Translations under genes and position numbers: made by a program
In this document: positions 39 through 62,447 of the stretch, in pieces
Layout of the letters: every line of letters starts with the position of its first letter
Position numbering within the stretch: the stretch's first letter is position 1
Assembly: GCF_000585335.1 (NCBI RefSeq)
Contig: NZ_KK073872.1
Coordinates: 1,727,283-1,791,282, forward strand
DNA: 64,000 nucleotides
Origin: Cloacibacillus evryensis DSM 19522
GTDB taxonomy: Bacteria; Synergistota; Synergistia; Synergistales; Synergistaceae
Direction of reading: 5' to 3'
The notes under the pieces: generated by a model
Told to the model about the DNA's origin: nothing
The model's database searches: none
Seen by the model: only the letters and a program-made list of their open reading frames with translations

Positions 39-1067
39 ATGATAAAACCAAACGAAGAGGCCAACAGCCGCGCGCAGGTGTTTGAGACGCTGATGGAGAA
101 CCCGGGCGCGATAGTATCCAGCTCGCTGTTGACGCAGAGGCTCTCCTCCTCACGTCAGGCTGTATTCAAGGCCGTCTGCTCCCTCAAGGACGAGGGCGTC
201 CCCATTGAATCGATACCACAAAAGGGCTACCGTCTGGAAAGCATCGACGAACTTCAGAAGCTGAGCCCTACGATGATTGAGTTTTTCCTCCGAGATAATC
301 CTCTTTTCAACAGGTGTATCTATATGCGAGAAACGGACTCCACCCAAAAGGTGATAAAGAAGCTCGCGATGCAGGAGGCCGAAGCCGGTATCGTGGCGCT
401 GACTGAACGCCAGAGCGAAGGCCGGGGCCGGCGCGGAAGAAGCTGGCAGAGCCCCGACGAGAAAAATCTGATGTTCTCCATGCTCCTGCGGCCGACGCTG
501 AAACCGGGCGAGGTACAACTGCTTAATTTAGCCGCCGGTCTTGCCGTCAAAGAGACGCTCGGCGAGCTCTGCGGCATCTCCTCGGAGCTGAAATGGCCCA
601 ACGACATCCTCTGCCGCGGCAAAAAGCTTTGCGGCATTTTAAGCGAGGCCGCGGGCGAGCCGGACCGGATATATTACGCCGTCACCGGCATCGGCATCAA
701 CGTCAACATGGGGCCTCCTGATATTCCCGAAGAGATAGCCGGCGTCGCCACTTCCGTCCTTATCGAAGGCGGCCGGCGGTTCGCAAGGTGGAAATTGCTG
801 GTGGATTTTCTGGCCCGCTTCGCGGCGCTGATGGAACTGCTCTCCTCCCGCGGAGGCGCGGTGAAGCTGCTCTCGCTTTACAGGCGCGGCTGTGATACGA
901 TAGGAAGAGAGATCCGTGTCGTGCAGGACGAGGAAATCTTCAACGGCAGGGCGACCGGCATCACGCCGGAGGGAGCTCTCGTCGTGCATACAAGTGACGG
1001 AGAAAAAATATTTGCCGCGGCGGATGTACATCATCTGCGCATGGCGGAGGGAGTGAACGGCGGATGA
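39..1067 (+). CDS. birA: Bifunctional biotin-protein ligase / biotin operon repressor
   Basis: It attaches biotin to carboxylase carrier domains through biotinyl-AMP and, in two-domain forms, represses biotin genes. The roughly 60-residue N-terminal winged helix contains SSSRQAVFKAV. The central catalytic domain contains the GRGRRGRSW biotin-binding loop and KWPNDI, and a small SH3-like C-terminal domain follows. I chose the ATG at 39 because AAGGGAAG precedes it; the frame stays open to a TTG at 9. The stop overlaps the selD start by four bases (ATGA), so the two genes are probably co-transcribed. The N-terminal HTH implies DNA binding, but no operator is visible because the gene starts at the window edge. 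Confidence 0.95.
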   Translation: MIKPNEEANSRAQVFETLMENPGAIVSSSLLTQRLSSSRQAVFKAVCSLKDEGVPIESIPQKGYRLESIDELQKLSPTMIEFFLRDNPLFNRCIYMRETDSTQKVIKKLAMQEAEAGIVALTERQSEGRGRRGRSWQSPDEKNLMFSMLLRPTLKPGEVQLLNLAAGLAVKETLGELCGISSELKWPNDILCRGKKLCGILSEAAGEPDRIYYAVTGIGINVNMGPPDIPEEIAGVATSVLIEGGRRFARWKLLVDFLARFAALMELLSSRGGAVKLLSLYRRGCDTIGREIRVVQDEEIFNGRATGITPEGALVVHTSDGEKIFAAADVHHLRMAEGVNGG

Positions 1068-2095
1068 GGCTTACGGAACGCGCCCGCACAAGCGGCTGAG
1101 CAGCAAAGATAGCTCCGGCGGAGCTTGACAGGATATTAAAAGACCTTCCGGTCTTCCGTTCCGATGATCTGCTCGCCTCATGGAATCACGGAGAGGATGC
1201 GGCGCTCTGGAAGATAACGGACGAGCGGATCGGGATATTGACGATCGACTTCATTACGCCTGTGGTAGACGATCCTAAAAAATTCGGCGAAATCGCGGCG
1301 GCGAATTCGCTCAGCGACGTATACGCGATGGGCGGCAGGCCGATAATAGCGCTCAACGTGGTCTGTTTCCCTACCTCCTGCGAGCCGATCTCCGTGCTTC
1401 AGGAGATCCTTGAGGGCGGCGCCCGGAAGGTAATAGAGGCGCGGACCATGCTGGCCGGAGGCCACAGCGTGCAGGACGAGGAGCCGAAGTACGGGCTCGT
1501 CGTCTTTGGCGAGGTAGAAAGCGACGAAATGTGGACCGTCGGCAGCGCGAAGGAGGGCGATTCGCTCATCCTCACAAAACCGATCGGCACGGGAATCGCC
1601 GTGACGGCGATCAAGGCGGGGCTGTTTTCGCCCGAAAATATCGAGGCGGCGGAATTGAATATGGCCAAGCTCAACGCGGTGCCGCCGCTGCTGCCCAAAA
1701 AGCTGCGCAGGGCAGTGACGTCCTGTACGGACCTGACGGGTTTCGGGCTGGCGAGTCACGCGCTGGACCTCGCCTCCGAGGGGACGTCGCTTACGATAGA
1801 CTGCGCCAAGATCCCGCTGCTCCCCGGGATATCCGAAATGGCGGAGATGGGACTGATACCGGCGGGAGCCTATGAAAACAGGAAGTATGCCGGCGCGCGC
1901 GTGATAAATAATTCCCCGCTGGGGCGCTTCGCCGAGGACATAGCCTTTGATCCGCAGACCTCAGGCGGTCTGCTGATTACGGCAGACAGGCGCAGCGCCG
2001 CTGAAATTCTTGAGATCGTGCGCGGTAACGGCTTTGAGAGGGCGGAAATAATCGGAAGTTTCCACGCTGGTGACGAAAGACTGACCTTGATTTAG
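1064..2095 (+). CDS. selD: Selenide, water dikinase (selenophosphate synthetase) with predicted selenocysteine
   Basis: SelD makes selenophosphate from selenide and ATP, the selenium donor for selenocysteine and 2-selenouridine. Conventional ORF calling starts at 1238, but the same frame is open back to an ATG at 1064 except for one TGA at 1097-1099. Reading through gives MRLTERARTSG-U-AAKIAP, matching the SelD active-site loop in which E. coli has Cys17 and Lys20, here Sec12 and Lys15. The rest is a complete SelD, with DFITPVVDDPKKFGEIAAAN, AMGGRP and GGHS; total 343 residues. A 6-bp hairpin follows the TGA. The start overlaps the birA stop. Confidence is high for SelD and slightly lower for Sec insertion itself. 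Confidence 0.93.
1097..1125 (+). promoter_or_regulatory. In-frame TGA (Sec) plus candidate bacterial SECIS hairpin
   Basis: The TGA at 1097-1099 is followed 11 bases later by AGCTCC-GGC-GGAGCT (1111-1125), a perfect 6-bp stem with a three-base loop. Bacterial SECIS elements are short hairpins just downstream of the UGA inside the coding region, with G-rich apical loops bound by SelB. Position and shape fit; the SelB contact is inferred. Confidence 0.7.
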
Positions 2096-38994: not shown

Positions 38995-40185
38995 ATGAAA
39001 ACAAAGCTCACCCAAACCATGATAACATCACTAAGCCTCTCGGAGAAGAGGACAGTGTACCGCGATTCTCAAGTTCCGGGGCTAACTCTGCGAGTTGGCG
39101 CTACGGGCAAGAAGTTTTATCTCGACTATAAAATAAACGGGAATCGCCGATGGTATCTGATCGGAGACGCGGCTTATATGAAACTGGATGAGGCCAGACG
39201 CGAAGCCCATGCCTTTTTAGGTATCCTTGCCACAGGCAAAGACCCGCTGGCCGTGCCCGAGCCACTTATGACATACAAGGCCCTGCGGGACGATTATTAT
39301 GCTCCATGGGTAAAAGAGCACCGTAAAAGCGGCGCTGAGACCATCAAGGGACTTAAGCGGTATTTCGCCCAATTTGACGATAAAGCAATCAACGAACTTA
39401 CGCTTGCAGACATGGAGGCGTGGCGTCGGGAGATGCGTGAGAAGAGGCATCTTAAGTCCGCCACGCTAAACAGGTCGGCGGGGTATTTAACCTCCATGAT
39501 CAACTGGGCTGTAAACAAGAAAATCATATCTTCCAACCCTATAGCCGACCTTGAGCACCTGAAGGAGACAGATTCTAAAAAGGCTTGGCGCTTTCTGTCG
39601 AAAAACGAGATCGTTATTTTGAAGGAAGCGCTAGCCGCCAGGGACAAGCAGGTGCGCGACGGTGCGAAAAAGTGTATCTATGATATCCCTTTGCCTGGAG
39701 CTTACCCCGACCCTCTAACTCCTATGGTACTGACGGCGTTATATTCCGGCATTCGCTGGGGCTCCCTGGTTGCTCTGCACTGGCATAGCCTCGACCTCAC
39801 GCATGGCAGCATCTACCTCGAGGCCGACGATACCAAATCTGAGGACATGCAGAGCATCCCTATCAACGGCGCTCTCTTAGCCGTACTTCATGATTGGCAA
39901 CAAGAGTTCCCTTCTGCCCCCGGCGATCTTGTTTTTCCGGCTCCGAAGGGCGGAATATTCTATAACGTCAACGCTGCGTGGTATGAACTGCTTGCCGACG
40001 CAGGCATTGGCCATCTGCGCTGGCACGACTTGCGCCACACCTTCGCATCGCAGCTCGTAATGGCCGGTGTGCCGCTCAACACCGTCCGCGAGCTGCTGGG
40101 ACACAAAAACATAAAAACGACCTTGCGTTACGCTCATCTGGCACCGCAGGGGCTAAAATCGGCTGTTGAACGCCTGGTGGATTGA
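38995..40185 (+). CDS. Phage integrase, tyrosine recombinase
   Basis: The 396-residue protein has the P4/lambda-type arm-binding domain (LTLRVGATGKKFYLDYKING, then LDEARREAHAFLGILATGKD), a core-binding SAM-like domain (about 100-180) and the catalytic domain with Arg in YSGIRWGSLVALHW, HDLRHTFASQLV (His-Arg), LLGHKNIKTTLRYAHLA (His and Tyr nucleophile). CAGGGGGAACGAA precedes the ATG. It lies 170 bases from the tRNA-Val junction, as expected for the enzyme that uses that site. Confidence 0.95.
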   Translation: MKTKLTQTMITSLSLSEKRTVYRDSQVPGLTLRVGATGKKFYLDYKINGNRRWYLIGDAAYMKLDEARREAHAFLGILATGKDPLAVPEPLMTYKALRDDYYAPWVKEHRKSGAETIKGLKRYFAQFDDKAINELTLADMEAWRREMREKRHLKSATLNRSAGYLTSMINWAVNKKIISSNPIADLEHLKETDSKKAWRFLSKNEIVILKEALAARDKQVRDGAKKCIYDIPLPGAYPDPLTPMVLTALYSGIRWGSLVALHWHSLDLTHGSIYLEADDTKSEDMQSIPINGALLAVLHDWQQEFPSAPGDLVFPAPKGGIFYNVNAAWYELLADAGIGHLRWHDLRHTFASQLVMAGVPLNTVRELLGHKNIKTTLRYAHLAPQGLKSAVERLVD

Positions 40186-40311
40186 AATTTTAGTTGTAGA
40201 CGGAACTGCGGTGTCCAATCTTCACCACGAGAACAATAAGGCGTCCATATAACATTAAGATAAAATTTTTTTCTTTTGTGGTGCTGTATTCAAGCTTCGT
40301 GATATTTCCAA

Positions 40312-54341: not shown

Positions 54342-54526
54342 CTTTAGTACGTTAAAGTTTTGTGGATAACTCATATTTTATACGCTTTAGTTTGCTAAAG
54401 TTTCCGCTCCACCGCTTATTTTATCGTTCACGGAAAAATCTTACACAATACTAGAAACGTAAGATTTAGACACGAGGGTTCGTGTCAGCATCATAAGAGC
54501 TAAATGTCGTAGTGGAGGGCCTCCAC
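54342..54526. promoter_or_regulatory. Palindrome-rich leader of the late (head) genes
   Basis: In the 358-base gene-free stretch 54295-54652 I see two related palindromes 43 bases apart (CTTTAGTACGTTAAAG at 54342, CTTTAGTTTGCTAAAG at 54385), a DnaA-box-like TGTGGATAA (54361-54369), AAATCTTAC/GTAAGATTT (54436-54467), ACACGA/TCGTGT (54470-54485) and GTGGAGG/CCTCCAC (54512-54526). A GC-rich tract follows to 54600. This could be a regulator-binding region and/or a cos site. Confidence 0.5.
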
Positions 54527-54652
54527 GGCAATCGCGGGTCCTTCTGGGGCAAAGGGGGCCTGCGGGGCTGGCGAGGCGCGGGGTTTCTGTACAAAAATTC
54601 AGGTTACCCCCCGTTTCGGTTTCATACAAAGACGGAAAGGAGAGATATAAGG

Positions 54653-55954
54653 ATGGAAATTGTCTTTTTGAACCCAAGTACATTGTTACCTTATGCCAAC
54701 AATTCACGCAAGCACCCCGAGAAGCAGATACGCAAACTGATGGCCTCGATTCAGGAATTCGGATTTCTCATTCCTGTTTTTATTGACCGCAGCGGAACGA
54801 TTATCAAGGGCGCTGGAGCCACGGAAGCCGCCGTGAGACTTTGCCTTGAATCTATACCTTGTATATATATTGACACACTGACCGATGCGCAAAGGCGCGC
54901 ATATATCATCGCCGACAATCGCCTTGCCGAAGATTCTGAATGGGACAAAGAAACGCTTGCCGCCGAGATGTTGCGGCTTCGCGATGACTTCGGCCTAGAT
55001 CTCTCGATTACGGGTTTTGAAAACCGCGAAGTGCTGACCCTAAGCCTAGACTCAGTGGAGGGGTTTTCTCCTGAGGATGGCATACCGGACATGGAGCCAG
55101 CCGTTGTTTCGCGCCCGGGCGACGTCTGGCTTTTAGGTGCACATAGCATCATTTGCGGAGATTGCACGGACCCGGCTATCGTTGAACGGCTATTTGACGG
55201 TAGCCGCCCTCACCTCATGGTTACCGATCCTCCGTATGGGGTCAAATATGATCCTAAATGGCGCATGGATAACGGGCTCTCAAAATCGAAAAGGACCGGC
55301 ACGGTGCTGAATGACGACCGTGCCGATTGGCGCGAGGCATGGAACCTGTTCCCTGGGGATGTCGCTTACGTTTGGCACGGCTCTTTGCATGGCCGCACCG
55401 TCGCAGAAAGCCTTGAAGTAAATGGTTTTATTTTAAGAAGTCAAATAGTATGGATTAAACCGAATCTGATACTGAGTCGTGGCGATATCCACTGGCAGCA
55501 CGAGGTATGTTGGTACGCCGTGCGTCGCGATGAAACTGTATGCCCAGAGCTGCCGGGGTATTGCGGTGACAGTTATCAAGCTTGCTGGTACGCCGTGCGC
55601 GAAGGCGAGATATCCCATTGGCAGGGATCGCGGAAGGTATCCAGCGTTTGGGAAATAGATTTCAGCGGCCAAGATGAGAAAACTATACATGGTACGCAAA
55701 AACCTGTGGAGTGTATGAGGCGCGCAATCCTGAACAGCTCGAAGGTAAACGATATGGTATATGACCCATTTTCCGGGTCCGGTACAACCATTATTGCCGC
55801 GCAGTCTTGCCGGCGCAGGTGTCTTGCTGTAGAGCTTGATCCCGCATACGTGGATATGGCCGTGCGGCGTTGGCAGCGATATACATCCCAGAGCGCGACA
55901 CTCGCCGAATCTGGCAAAACGTTCGACAAATTAAGGCGGGAGCGGCGTGAGTGA
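54653..55954 (+). CDS. ParB-like nuclease domain fused to a DNA methyltransferase
   Basis: Residues 1-110 are ParB/Srx-like (LNPSTLLPYANNSRKHPEKQ, IKGAGATEAAVRLCLESIPC). From about 150 it is a beta-class N4/N6 methyltransferase: motif IV VTDPPYGVKYDP first, then motif I YDPFSGSGTTIIAAQSC near the C-terminus. AAAGGAG precedes the ATG. CWYAVR occurs twice, 25 residues apart, from a 17-bp imperfect repeat at 55508 and 55583. Such fusions commonly precede phage terminase genes and probably modify phage DNA. Confidence 0.9.
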   Translation: MEIVFLNPSTLLPYANNSRKHPEKQIRKLMASIQEFGFLIPVFIDRSGTIIKGAGATEAAVRLCLESIPCIYIDTLTDAQRRAYIIADNRLAEDSEWDKETLAAEMLRLRDDFGLDLSITGFENREVLTLSLDSVEGFSPEDGIPDMEPAVVSRPGDVWLLGAHSIICGDCTDPAIVERLFDGSRPHLMVTDPPYGVKYDPKWRMDNGLSKSKRTGTVLNDDRADWREAWNLFPGDVAYVWHGSLHGRTVAESLEVNGFILRSQIVWIKPNLILSRGDIHWQHEVCWYAVRRDETVCPELPGYCGDSYQACWYAVREGEISHWQGSRKVSSVWEIDFSGQDEKTIHGTQKPVECMRRAILNSSKVNDMVYDPFSGSGTTIIAAQSCRRRCLAVELDPAYVDMAVRRWQRYTSQSATLAESGKTFDKLRRERRE

Positions 55955-56498
55955 TGTCGTGGGGGGCAATCTTTACTCTAAAAAGATTATCGCAGAACTC
56001 TTAAATCTCTCAGAACGTCGAGTCGAACAGCTTGCTCAAAAGAAAATTATCCCCAAGGCAGAGCGTGGCAAGTACGATCTTGGTCCAACCGTAAAAGCCT
56101 ACGTAATGTACCTCCAGCAAAAACTCACTGGCGGCGGCGAGGCTATCGACGTTTCAGAGTTTAAGGACAGGCTGCTTAAGGCCAAGGCGCTTGAGCAGGA
56201 GGCAAAGGCACGCCTGCGTGAAATTATGAAGCTGGAACGCGAGGGAAAGGTAATTGACCGCGCCGAGGTTGTGGAACAGTGGGCGGCGCGCTGCGTAGAG
56301 CTTAAATCCGCATTGCTTTCCATTCCCATGCGTGTGGGTTTTCGCTTCCCCGACCCTGAAACTCGCCTAATAGTTGAAGAAGAAATGGAAATGGCTATAC
56401 ATGAAATCCTTGAAACGTACAGCAGAAACGGTATTGGCAAAATGGACGACGGCGGAGCTTCGGGCGCTGGCACCGCCGGAGAAAATAAGTGTGAGTGA
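55947..56498 (+). CDS. Terminase small subunit, Nu1-like
   Basis: The GTG start overlaps the methyltransferase stop. The N-terminal winged HTH (IIAELLNLSERRVEQLAQKK) and the following helices (LLKAKALEQEAKARLREIMK) match lambda Nu1-type DNA-recognition subunits. It is 183 residues. The end overlaps the large subunit gene by about 98 bases, in another frame. Confidence 0.85.
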   Translation: MSDVVGGNLYSKKIIAELLNLSERRVEQLAQKKIIPKAERGKYDLGPTVKAYVMYLQQKLTGGGEAIDVSEFKDRLLKAKALEQEAKARLREIMKLEREGKVIDRAEVVEQWAARCVELKSALLSIPMRVGFRFPDPETRLIVEEEMEMAIHEILETYSRNGIGKMDDGGASGAGTAGENKCE

Positions 56499-58820: not shown

Positions 58821-60379
58821 ACGAACAACTGACCTTGCTTGACAGGCTGATAGGCTGGCTTTCGCCGGAGGCGGGCGTAAGGCGCGCCGAATTTCGTATG
58901 GAGATGCGCAGCTATGACGCCGCCCGCATTGACCCGCAGGGCGGCAACTGGTTTCCGATAAACACCACTCCCGAGCAGACCGACGCCCCACACCGCAATC
59001 TGGTCCGCGCCCGTATGCGTGACCTTGAGCGTAACGGAGACGTCACGGAGGGCGTCATCGGCGCGATGCTACGCAACGTAATCGGCACCGGATTTGTGCT
59101 TGAAGCCCAAGTTTGCAGCGCCCGCGGCAAGACGCTGGACGTCATAAACGACCGAATCGAAGAAATATGGAAGGAGTGGTCTTTGGCCGAAAACTGCGAT
59201 GTAACGGGAGACAGCTCATTTTCGGAAATATTAGAGATGGTCATGCGCCGGCACGCCATTGACGGGGAAATATTCATCGTTAAGGTGGTCGACCCTGACG
59301 GGTATCTGCCTTTTAAACTCCAGCTGCTGGAGCCCGACATGCTGGCCTGTGACAGGTTTCAGTATGGAGCTAATTATGTGTTCGGCGGTATCGAAGTCGA
59401 CAAGTATATGAAAGCCGTAGCTTATCACTTTCGGCCAGACCCGCTGCCATATTTCCGCGACCAGACGATCGTCCGTATTCCGCGCGAGAATGTGATCCAT
59501 ATTTTCACCAAAAAACGCCCGCAGCAGACACGCAGCTTATCAGATATGGCCGTCTGCACGGAGCGCGTGCGCAATATACAGGAATATATTGGCAACGAAC
59601 TTGAAGCGGCCCGCAACGCGGCGGCTATCACCGCATTTGTCGTCAAGGAGAAGGGGGCATCCGGCCCCGGAATAGGCAACCCCGTCGGCGGCAAAGGCGA
59701 CAAAACCAAACGCTATGAAGAGATTCGGCGCGGACAATACAACGTGCTCAGCAAGAATGACGATATTAGATTCCCCACGCTGGGACGGCCGAACGTCAAC
59801 GCCGCCGGTTTCACCTCGTTTCTCATCCGCCTGATCGCCATGGCTTGCGGCCTCAGCTATGAGACTGTTTCGCGCGACATGTCGCAGGTCAACTATTCCT
59901 CGCACCGCGGCGGCCAGCTTGAGGACCGGAAGACATACACGAAGATGCAGAAGAGGCTTGTCGCCAAACTCTGTGATCGCGTGTACGAATGGTTTCTTGA
60001 GGCGGCCGTCATGTCCGGCAAACTGGCGCTGCCGAGGTATTTCGAGGACGAGCGCGCGCGGCGCAGATACGCGGCCCATAAATGGAGCACTCCCGGATGG
60101 AAGTGGGTAGACCCGCAGAAGGAAGCCTCCGGCATGGAAAAGATGCTCGCTCTTGGCATTACGACACTCTCGGATATTTGCGGCGAGCAGGGCAAGGATT
60201 ATTACGAGGTTATGAAGCAGCGTAAAAAAGAGATTGACGAGGCTCGCGAGCTAGGCATTGAACTGCCCTGGTTTTCAGGCAAGGAATCCACGTCTGCCGA
60301 GGAATACAACAAGCTCATGAACGAAGAGGACAATCCACCGTCAAAAAAGGAGGGTGAAAATGAAGAAGAAACCAGTTAA
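58817..60379 (+). CDS. Portal protein, lambda gpB family
   Basis: ATG 58817 gives 520 residues. Family marks are RMRDLERNGDVTEGVIGAML, GTGFVLEAQVC, RRHAIDGEIFIVKVVDPDGY, NVIHIFTKKRPQQTRSLSDM and RDMSQVNYSSHRGGQLEDRK. A dodecamer of this protein forms the DNA portal at one capsid vertex. It overlaps gpW and the protease-capsid gene. Confidence 0.94.
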   Translation: MNEQLTLLDRLIGWLSPEAGVRRAEFRMEMRSYDAARIDPQGGNWFPINTTPEQTDAPHRNLVRARMRDLERNGDVTEGVIGAMLRNVIGTGFVLEAQVCSARGKTLDVINDRIEEIWKEWSLAENCDVTGDSSFSEILEMVMRRHAIDGEIFIVKVVDPDGYLPFKLQLLEPDMLACDRFQYGANYVFGGIEVDKYMKAVAYHFRPDPLPYFRDQTIVRIPRENVIHIFTKKRPQQTRSLSDMAVCTERVRNIQEYIGNELEAARNAAAITAFVVKEKGASGPGIGNPVGGKGDKTKRYEEIRRGQYNVLSKNDDIRFPTLGRPNVNAAGFTSFLIRLIAMACGLSYETVSRDMSQVNYSSHRGGQLEDRKTYTKMQKRLVAKLCDRVYEWFLEAAVMSGKLALPRYFEDERARRRYAAHKWSTPGWKWVDPQKEASGMEKMLALGITTLSDICGEQGKDYYEVMKQRKKEIDEARELGIELPWFSGKESTSAEEYNKLMNEEDNPPSKKEGENEEETS

Positions 60380-62447
60380 ACCCGCCGCCACCCGCACGGC
60401 ATATTTTTCTCCGTCGCAGACGCATCAGCGGGAACTTAGATTTGAGGCGTCGGCGGATGAGGGCTCGCGGTCAATCGAGCTCTCTTTTTCGTCGGACTGC
60501 GGCCTGCGGCAATATGATTTTTGGACCGGCGGATGGTATTCGGAGGTCCTCGACCACAGCGAAGAGGCAGTGGACCTTTCCAGGCTAAGCGAGATCGGCG
60601 TGGCTCTGTTCAACCATGACGCAGATCGCGTGATCGGCCGCCTTGAGGACGTCCGCATAGACCGCGAGTCAAGGAAGGGCAAATGCCGCGTCTTGTTTGA
60701 CGAAGACGAACGGTCGGATGAGATATTCCAGAAGGTGAAATCCGGCACGCTGAGAGGCGTTTCCGTCGGCTTCCGCGTATATCAATGGGAGGAGGTCCCC
60801 GCCGACGGAGTGTCCCGCGAAGGCATCGAAGGGCCGGCGTGGATCGCCCGCAGGTGGGAGCCATACGAGATAAGCATTGTAAGTTGTCCGGCCGACAAGA
60901 CGGTAGGAATAGGCAGAAGTATCAATAACAACGAAGAAAGGGATGATTCAGCAGTGAATGAATTTCGTGAACAGATATTAGGGACTTTTAGGGATTTGGC
61001 GGCGAAGAAGATTCAGCGGGCCGCTTTTGAGGAAACAATCCGCAGCATACTTGCGGGTGTTGATGACGAAGAGGCGCCGGAGGCTATGCGGTTCGTCAAA
61101 GAGATGAGAGAGGCCGCAGGGCTTGAAGCGCAGCCTGAGCCTCAGCAGAGCGGCAATAACGGCGTGAATCTTGAAGCGGAAAGAGCACGGGCGACGGAAA
61201 TAATGGCTATCTGCGGCAAGTACCATGTCCCGCAGGAAGAGGCGGCCCGGTATGTCAGCGAAGGGTTGTCTGTCGAGGCCGTTTGCCGCAGCATTCTGAC
61301 AGCACAGGCGGAAGGGACTTCCGGAGTCAGCACCGGACGCAGCGTAAGCATTGGCGAAGATGGGCGGGAAAAATTCCGCAGCGCCGCCCGAGACGGCCTG
61401 AGAATGCGGCTTGGCAAGCGTTCCGATAAATTCGCGCCCGGCGCGGAAGACTTCAGGGGCATAAAGCTTTCCAACCTCGCGCGTGAATGCGTGGAAAGAA
61501 ACGGCGAGAGCGTTTCCTACCGAGACAACGAAGATGATATCGCAAAGCGCGCTTTTGCCACGTCGGACTTCCCCATCATCATGACGGACCTTGCGAGAGT
61601 GACGCTGCTTGACGCGTATAACGAGGCCCCGACGACATGGCAGCGTTGGTGCGGAACCGGCAGCGCCAGTGATTTCAAGGAGCAACACAAGGTCCGTTTC
61701 GGCGAAATGCCGCTGCTTGAGCCTATTCTTGAGGGCGGCGAGTATAAGATGGCCGACCTGATGGAGACAAAAGACTCTTTCAGCATCGGCACGTTCGGGA
61801 AAAAATTCGCGCTGACCCGCAAGGCTATCATCAATGACGAACTCGGCGCTTTTGCCAGAATCCCGCAGCTTTTCGGCAGCGCTTCGGCCCGCACGATAGA
61901 GCAGACGGTCTATAAGCTGCTTTTCTCAAACCCCGTAATTGGCGAAGACGGCAAAACGCTCTTCCATGCCAATCACGGCAACCTTGCCGGGACAGCCTCC
62001 GCGCTGGGGATAGCGTCACTATCTGCCGCCAGAATTGCGATGCGCAGGCAGACGGGGCTCCGCAAGGATGCAGAAAACAAGGTGCAGCTGAATTTGACGC
62101 CAAAATACTTGCTGATTTCGCCGGAGCTTGAGACACTGGCGCGCCAGATACTCTACAGCGACACCGATATTACGGCGACAAACCCGGGCGTGATAAACCC
62201 GTTCAAGGGCGTTTTCGAGCCGGTGGTCATACCGCACATAACCGATTGGAGTTGGTATCTTGCGGCGTCGGCGTCTGAGATCGACACGGTGGAAGTAGCA
62301 TTTTTGAACGGACAGCAGAGTCCGACAATCGAGCAGATGCCGGGATGGAATACCGACGGCATGGAGTATAAGGTGCGCGTCGATTTCGGCGTCTGGTGCT
62401 ACGAATATCGCGGCATGTACAAAAACGCCGGCGCGCAGCCCGCGTAA
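60360..62447 (+). CDS. Prohead protease fused to major capsid protein
   Basis: ATG 60360 follows AGGAGGG. Residues 1-195 are an HK97-type (S78) prohead protease: GVALFNHDADRVIGRLEDVR with the catalytic His, GTLRGVSVGFRVYQWEEV with the catalytic Ser, and EPYEISIVSCPADKTVG. After a charged delta/scaffold-like helical region (about 200-330), the last 350 residues are a Mu gpT/HK97-like capsid protein (FGEMPLLEPILEGGEYKMAD, GKKFALTRKAIINDELGAFA). The protease presumably frees the capsid protein during assembly. Confidence 0.92.
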   Translation: MKKKPVKPAATRTAYFSPSQTHQRELRFEASADEGSRSIELSFSSDCGLRQYDFWTGGWYSEVLDHSEEAVDLSRLSEIGVALFNHDADRVIGRLEDVRIDRESRKGKCRVLFDEDERSDEIFQKVKSGTLRGVSVGFRVYQWEEVPADGVSREGIEGPAWIARRWEPYEISIVSCPADKTVGIGRSINNNEERDDSAVNEFREQILGTFRDLAAKKIQRAAFEETIRSILAGVDDEEAPEAMRFVKEMREAAGLEAQPEPQQSGNNGVNLEAERARATEIMAICGKYHVPQEEAARYVSEGLSVEAVCRSILTAQAEGTSGVSTGRSVSIGEDGREKFRSAARDGLRMRLGKRSDKFAPGAEDFRGIKLSNLARECVERNGESVSYRDNEDDIAKRAFATSDFPIIMTDLARVTLLDAYNEAPTTWQRWCGTGSASDFKEQHKVRFGEMPLLEPILEGGEYKMADLMETKDSFSIGTFGKKFALTRKAIINDELGAFARIPQLFGSASARTIEQTVYKLLFSNPVIGEDGKTLFHANHGNLAGTASALGIASLSAARIAMRRQTGLRKDAENKVQLNLTPKYLLISPELETLARQILYSDTDITATNPGVINPFKGVFEPVVIPHITDWSWYLAASASEIDTVEVAFLNGQQSPTIEQMPGWNTDGMEYKVRVDFGVWCYEYRGMYKNAGAQPA

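Follow-up and report, generated by a model that had tools for sequence, protein, structure and literature searches.

The selD gene at positions 1064–2095 (forward strand) of the window, the whole 64,000-nucleotide stretch of Cloacibacillus evryensis DSM 19522 DNA analyzed here, encodes an ordinary selenocysteine (Sec)-containing selenophosphate synthetase (selenide, water dikinase), a reading to which we assign a probability of roughly 97%. Sec would occupy residue 12 of the 343-residue protein, at the in-frame TGA 1097–1099. This finding in itself is known in kind, and has been for two decades. What appears to be new is a detail of the hairpin behind the UGA, which occurs in two registers within the phylum Synergistota.

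Among bacterial selenoprotein families, Sec-SelD ranks second in frequency (PMC1794560), with 383 organisms on record (PMC5029168). In a reference set of prokaryotes, some 19% of SelD genes carry Sec, always at this site (PMC4561486). The Synergistetes were named a selenoprotein-rich phylum in 2016, Sec being used by 13 of 14 genomes (PMC5029168). Cloacibacillus porcorum MFA1 requires selenium absolutely and possesses Sec machinery together with eight grdB genes of the Sec type (PMC10838667). Our host shares with these systems the organism family, the Sec machinery, and many GrdB-type selenoproteins.

Results and Discussion

The selD frame runs from ATG 1064 to TAG 2093–2095 and contains exactly one internal stop, TGA 1097–1099, as an earlier reading of the letters alone (hereafter, the sequence-only reading) had claimed. 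Translation through this codon gives the N-terminus MRLTERARTSGUAAKIAPAELD. A conventional open reading frame (ORF) instead begins at TTG 1238 and yields 285 residues, which reproduces the loss of 58 residues that the same reading had attributed to standard ORF calling. Immediately upstream on the forward strand, a birA-type biotin protein ligase/repressor gene (9–1067; Pfam BPL_LplA_LipB, BPL_C, and HTH_11) ends in a TGA that overlaps the selD start (ATGA, 1064–1067). Biotin ligase motifs lie upstream of selD at a similar distance in most Synergistaceae, and none were seen in other families.

The read-through protein, composed of AIRS and AIRS_C domains, matches the SelD equivalog profile TIGR00476 with 323 bits over residues 2–310 (cut-off 125). 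The truncated ORF scores 272 bits; the part before 1238 therefore adds about 52 bits. The closest solved structure is Aquifex aeolicus SelD (Protein Data Bank 2yye, E 7.6e-60), in which RSSGCAAK aligns with RTSGUAAK, while Escherichia coli SelD (3u0o) places AGCGCK at the same site. Both alignments thus put the TGA exactly on the catalytic Cys/Sec, where the sequence-only reading had located it from the motif S-G-U-A-A-K. The conserved Lys of the N-terminal loop follows (SG-U-AAK, compared with SGCAAK of 2yye and AGCGCK of 3u0o). With Sec-containing bacterial SelD of the TIGR00476 family, such as the A. aeolicus enzyme (2yye, 2zod), the window protein shares the loop motif SG(U/C)AAK, the catalytic position, and the length; nothing of substance differs from A. 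aeolicus SelD, whose crystal chain has Cys at the site. The orthologous E. coli enzyme, whose catalytic Cys aligns with the TGA, has Cys in place of Sec and is thus independent of Sec decoding.

The host genome, a single contig of 3.49 Mb in which selenoproteins were sought family by family, encodes the components that had been predicted for it as SelA/SelB/SelC and that together mark a bacterial selenoprotein host. The selA (567 bits) and selB (386 bits) genes are adjacent at 1248380–1251689, and a tRNA-Sec with anticodon TCA lies at 2058176–2058268 (76 bits). At least nine further genes of selenoprotein families contain one in-frame TGA each (seven GrdB-type, one GrdA, and one FdhA). Hairpins with a GGN triloop, in the style of selD, occur in six of these seven GrdB-type genes. 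Adjoining one TGA-containing GrdB-type locus (L064) is a GrdB-family match without TGA (L065, G000:C1:1306768–1307484) whose coverage of the profile is limited to the C-terminal half. A search for SelU (TIGR03167) found no match in the host genome and scored above the cut-off in one control genome, leaving Sec as the only selenium trait shown in this host. The window was also screened for a second selenoprotein among frames opened by reading TGA; none was kept, because the TGA fell after the last or before the first Pfam domain in the candidates checked.

This genomic setting bears on two other explanations of the open frame. One is that a near-cognate tRNA, such as that for Trp or Cys, reads the UGA at a low level, the hairpin being a plain readthrough element and SelD a protein without Sec; such a use of the UGA has been proposed for insect SPS1 (PMC4561486). 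We regard it as highly improbable here, given the complete Sec machinery, the many other selenoprotein genes, and the fact that Cys (TGC) alone replaces the UGA in relatives, the pattern that a Sec site should show. The other is an altered code, in which the host would generally read TGA as an amino acid and codon 12 would not be special. Several frames do stay open under TGA read-through, but TGA terminates birA at 1065–1067 and stands just past the last domain in other genes (e.g., the integrase at 38995 and the DNA methylase at 54512), and the host maintains a dedicated tRNA-Sec and selB, so that this explanation, too, retains only a minute chance. The last two genes belong to a prophage-like region (38995–62447) with a tyrosine integrase (38995–40239), a DNA methylase (54512–55981), and a single frame (60258–62447) that joins a prohead protease domain to a capsid domain.

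Established SelD and SelB biology leads us to infer three points for the Sec-containing SelD: insertion of Sec, a catalytic function of Sec12, and self-dependence. The hairpin at 1111–1125 would recruit SelB with Sec-tRNA-Sec, and UGA 1097–1099 would be read as Sec. Residue 12, in the mobile N-terminal loop, would then handle selenide while ATP is used to form selenophosphate. This product would in turn be used by SelA to make Sec-tRNA-Sec, such that the pathway would feed SelD itself, GrdA, the GrdB-type proteins, and FdhA. With only one SelD match in the host genome, the earlier proposal that selenoprotein synthesis depends on itself would follow from this anatomy. Self-dependence would be a known property of every Sec-SelD and not peculiar to this host; the mammalian enzyme SEPHS2 is likewise itself a selenoprotein (PMC7595633).

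The 6-bp hairpin reported 11 bases past the TGA was also recovered. It is a bacterial SECIS (bSECIS) element on the forward strand, AGCUCC-GGC-GGAGCU (1111–1125), with the loop GGC at 1117–1119, a folding energy of −7.9 kcal/mol, G at both of the first loop positions, and a UGA-to-loop spacing of 17 nt; we refer to this pairing as register A. These values fall within all published bSECIS limits, namely a loop of 3–9 nt, a stem of 4–16 bp, G in the first two loop positions, a distance of 16–37 nt from the UGA, and an energy of at most −7.5 kcal/mol. Loop size, loop G, stem, spacing, and energy are thus shared with the bacterial SECIS model (PMC13188914, after Zhang and Gladyshev 2005). Just 0.5% of synonymous recodings of the window selD reach the observed pairing, which argues that the hairpin is more than chance, although folding energy alone is less striking, as 14% of the recodings fold equally well. 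An alternative pairing, register B (1112–1130, loop GGA at 1120–1122), is weak in the window, with 5 of 8 pairs and −1.5 kcal/mol; it is the stable form in 15 Synergistaceae relatives.

To examine conservation of the codon, SelD was sought in 188 Synergistota genomes, and 94 SelD genes were read at the TGA site. TGA is present in 88 and TGC in 6, that is, an in-frame UGA at a position that is Cys in homologs, as is characteristic of selenoproteins. The TGA recurs at the same codon in numerous genera and in ten of the order's families, and residues 2–11, which precede it, are conserved as protein. A scan of a separate collection recovered three close relatives, 69–80% identical, from Synergistaceae-type organisms. 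Although a 285-residue ORF from TTG 1238 is called and still scores as SelD, this conservation at the sequence level already refutes a sequencing error or a real nonsense mutation, with selD a pseudogene or internally started, since 88 genes share the TGA, the residues before it are kept as protein, and an internal start would cut off the catalytic loop and the beginning of the fold. A miscalled TGC or TGT at 1097, which the sequence-only reading had itself offered as grounds for rejection, is ruled out by the dozens of genomes with TGA in common.

The distribution of Sec machinery agrees with the codon. Among 53 Synergistaceae genomes, selB or tRNA-Sec was found in 25 of 27 with Sec-SelD compared with 5 of the 26 remaining genomes (p 4e-8 by Fisher test, with no correction for relatedness). 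The two Sec-SelD genomes in which neither was seen are assemblies just 55% and 66% complete. Conversely, five of the six Cys-SelD genomes lack both selB and tRNA-Sec; in the remaining genome (G024, L122), a fragmented bin with 7% contamination, a Cys-type SelD shares one contig with selB and tRNA-Sec. The Cys-SelD genes form one clade (SH-aLRT 99) with about 40% identity to the Sec group and are therefore not recent Sec-to-Cys changes of the window gene. One further genome (G017) has two Sec-SelD genes (L035 and L120), 65% and 50% identical to that of the window, the second of which has a different, stronger hairpin after the UGA.

Comparison of 85 Sec-SelD genes revealed the two registers, with the genes falling into three classes according to residues 17 and 20. 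Three divergent genes (L047, L120, and L121), whose downstream sequence fits neither register, were left out. Class 1 (Gly17/Asp20, 61 genes) forms AGGUCC-loop-GGACCU in register A, with pair 3 as G-C or G-U; most Synergistota families have this class 1 pairing with the loop GGC. In class 2 (Gly or Ser17/Glu20, 15 genes), register A would set G against G at pair 3, and the stem forms instead in register B, one codon on, as GGUCCRGC-GGA-GCUGGACC, an 8-bp stem with the loop GGA that is found in many Synergistaceae. Class 3 (Ala17/Glu20, nine genes including that of the window) pairs in register A as AGCUCC-GGC-GGAGCU, with pair 3 as C-G. Folding stability favors register A in 70 of 70 class 1 and class 3 genes and register B in 15 of 15 class 2 genes.

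Two synonymous sites, unused in defining the classes, agree with this assignment. The third base of Pro18 opens the register-A loop and falls outside the loop in register B; it is G in 70 of 70 genes with register A versus 8 of 15 with register B (p 1e-6, relatedness ignored). At Leu21, the third base takes part in pairing in register B alone and is G in 14 of 15 class 2 genes and in 0 of 9 class 3 genes (p 8e-6, relatedness ignored). In a tree built without these columns, class 3 is a single clade (SH-aLRT 99) nested inside the Glu20 group, so that the register changes represent few events. As to the order of events, the nesting of the window clade within the Glu20 group is the one clear point. 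Swapping the two bases is non-synonymous (Gly17/Asp20 versus Ala17/Glu20), so that the hairpin and the enzyme changed together.

We consider it probable, with some reserve, that the selD bSECIS register changed within Synergistota. Glu20 would have cost the stem its third pair and moved it by one codon, and Ala17 would have re-formed pair 3 as C-G and restored register A. Two residues next to the active site thus seem to have been shaped by RNA pairing, with SelB still seeing the same C-GGN-G loop. In this respect selD departs from the bacterial SECIS model (PMC13188914), as its stem stands in two registers one codon apart between clades, with coupled amino acid changes. No report of two selD hairpin registers was found in the literature searched, where most subscription papers were absent; the change is a modest detail and apparently unreported.

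Conclusions

For annotation, these results give a SelD that is 58 residues longer than the protein of the ORF caller, with the catalytic loop within the missing part. The register change would offer a small, testable case of an intragenic RNA signal dictating the amino acids of an enzyme, and of one loop being accepted by SelB whether it lies 17 or 20 nt from the UGA.
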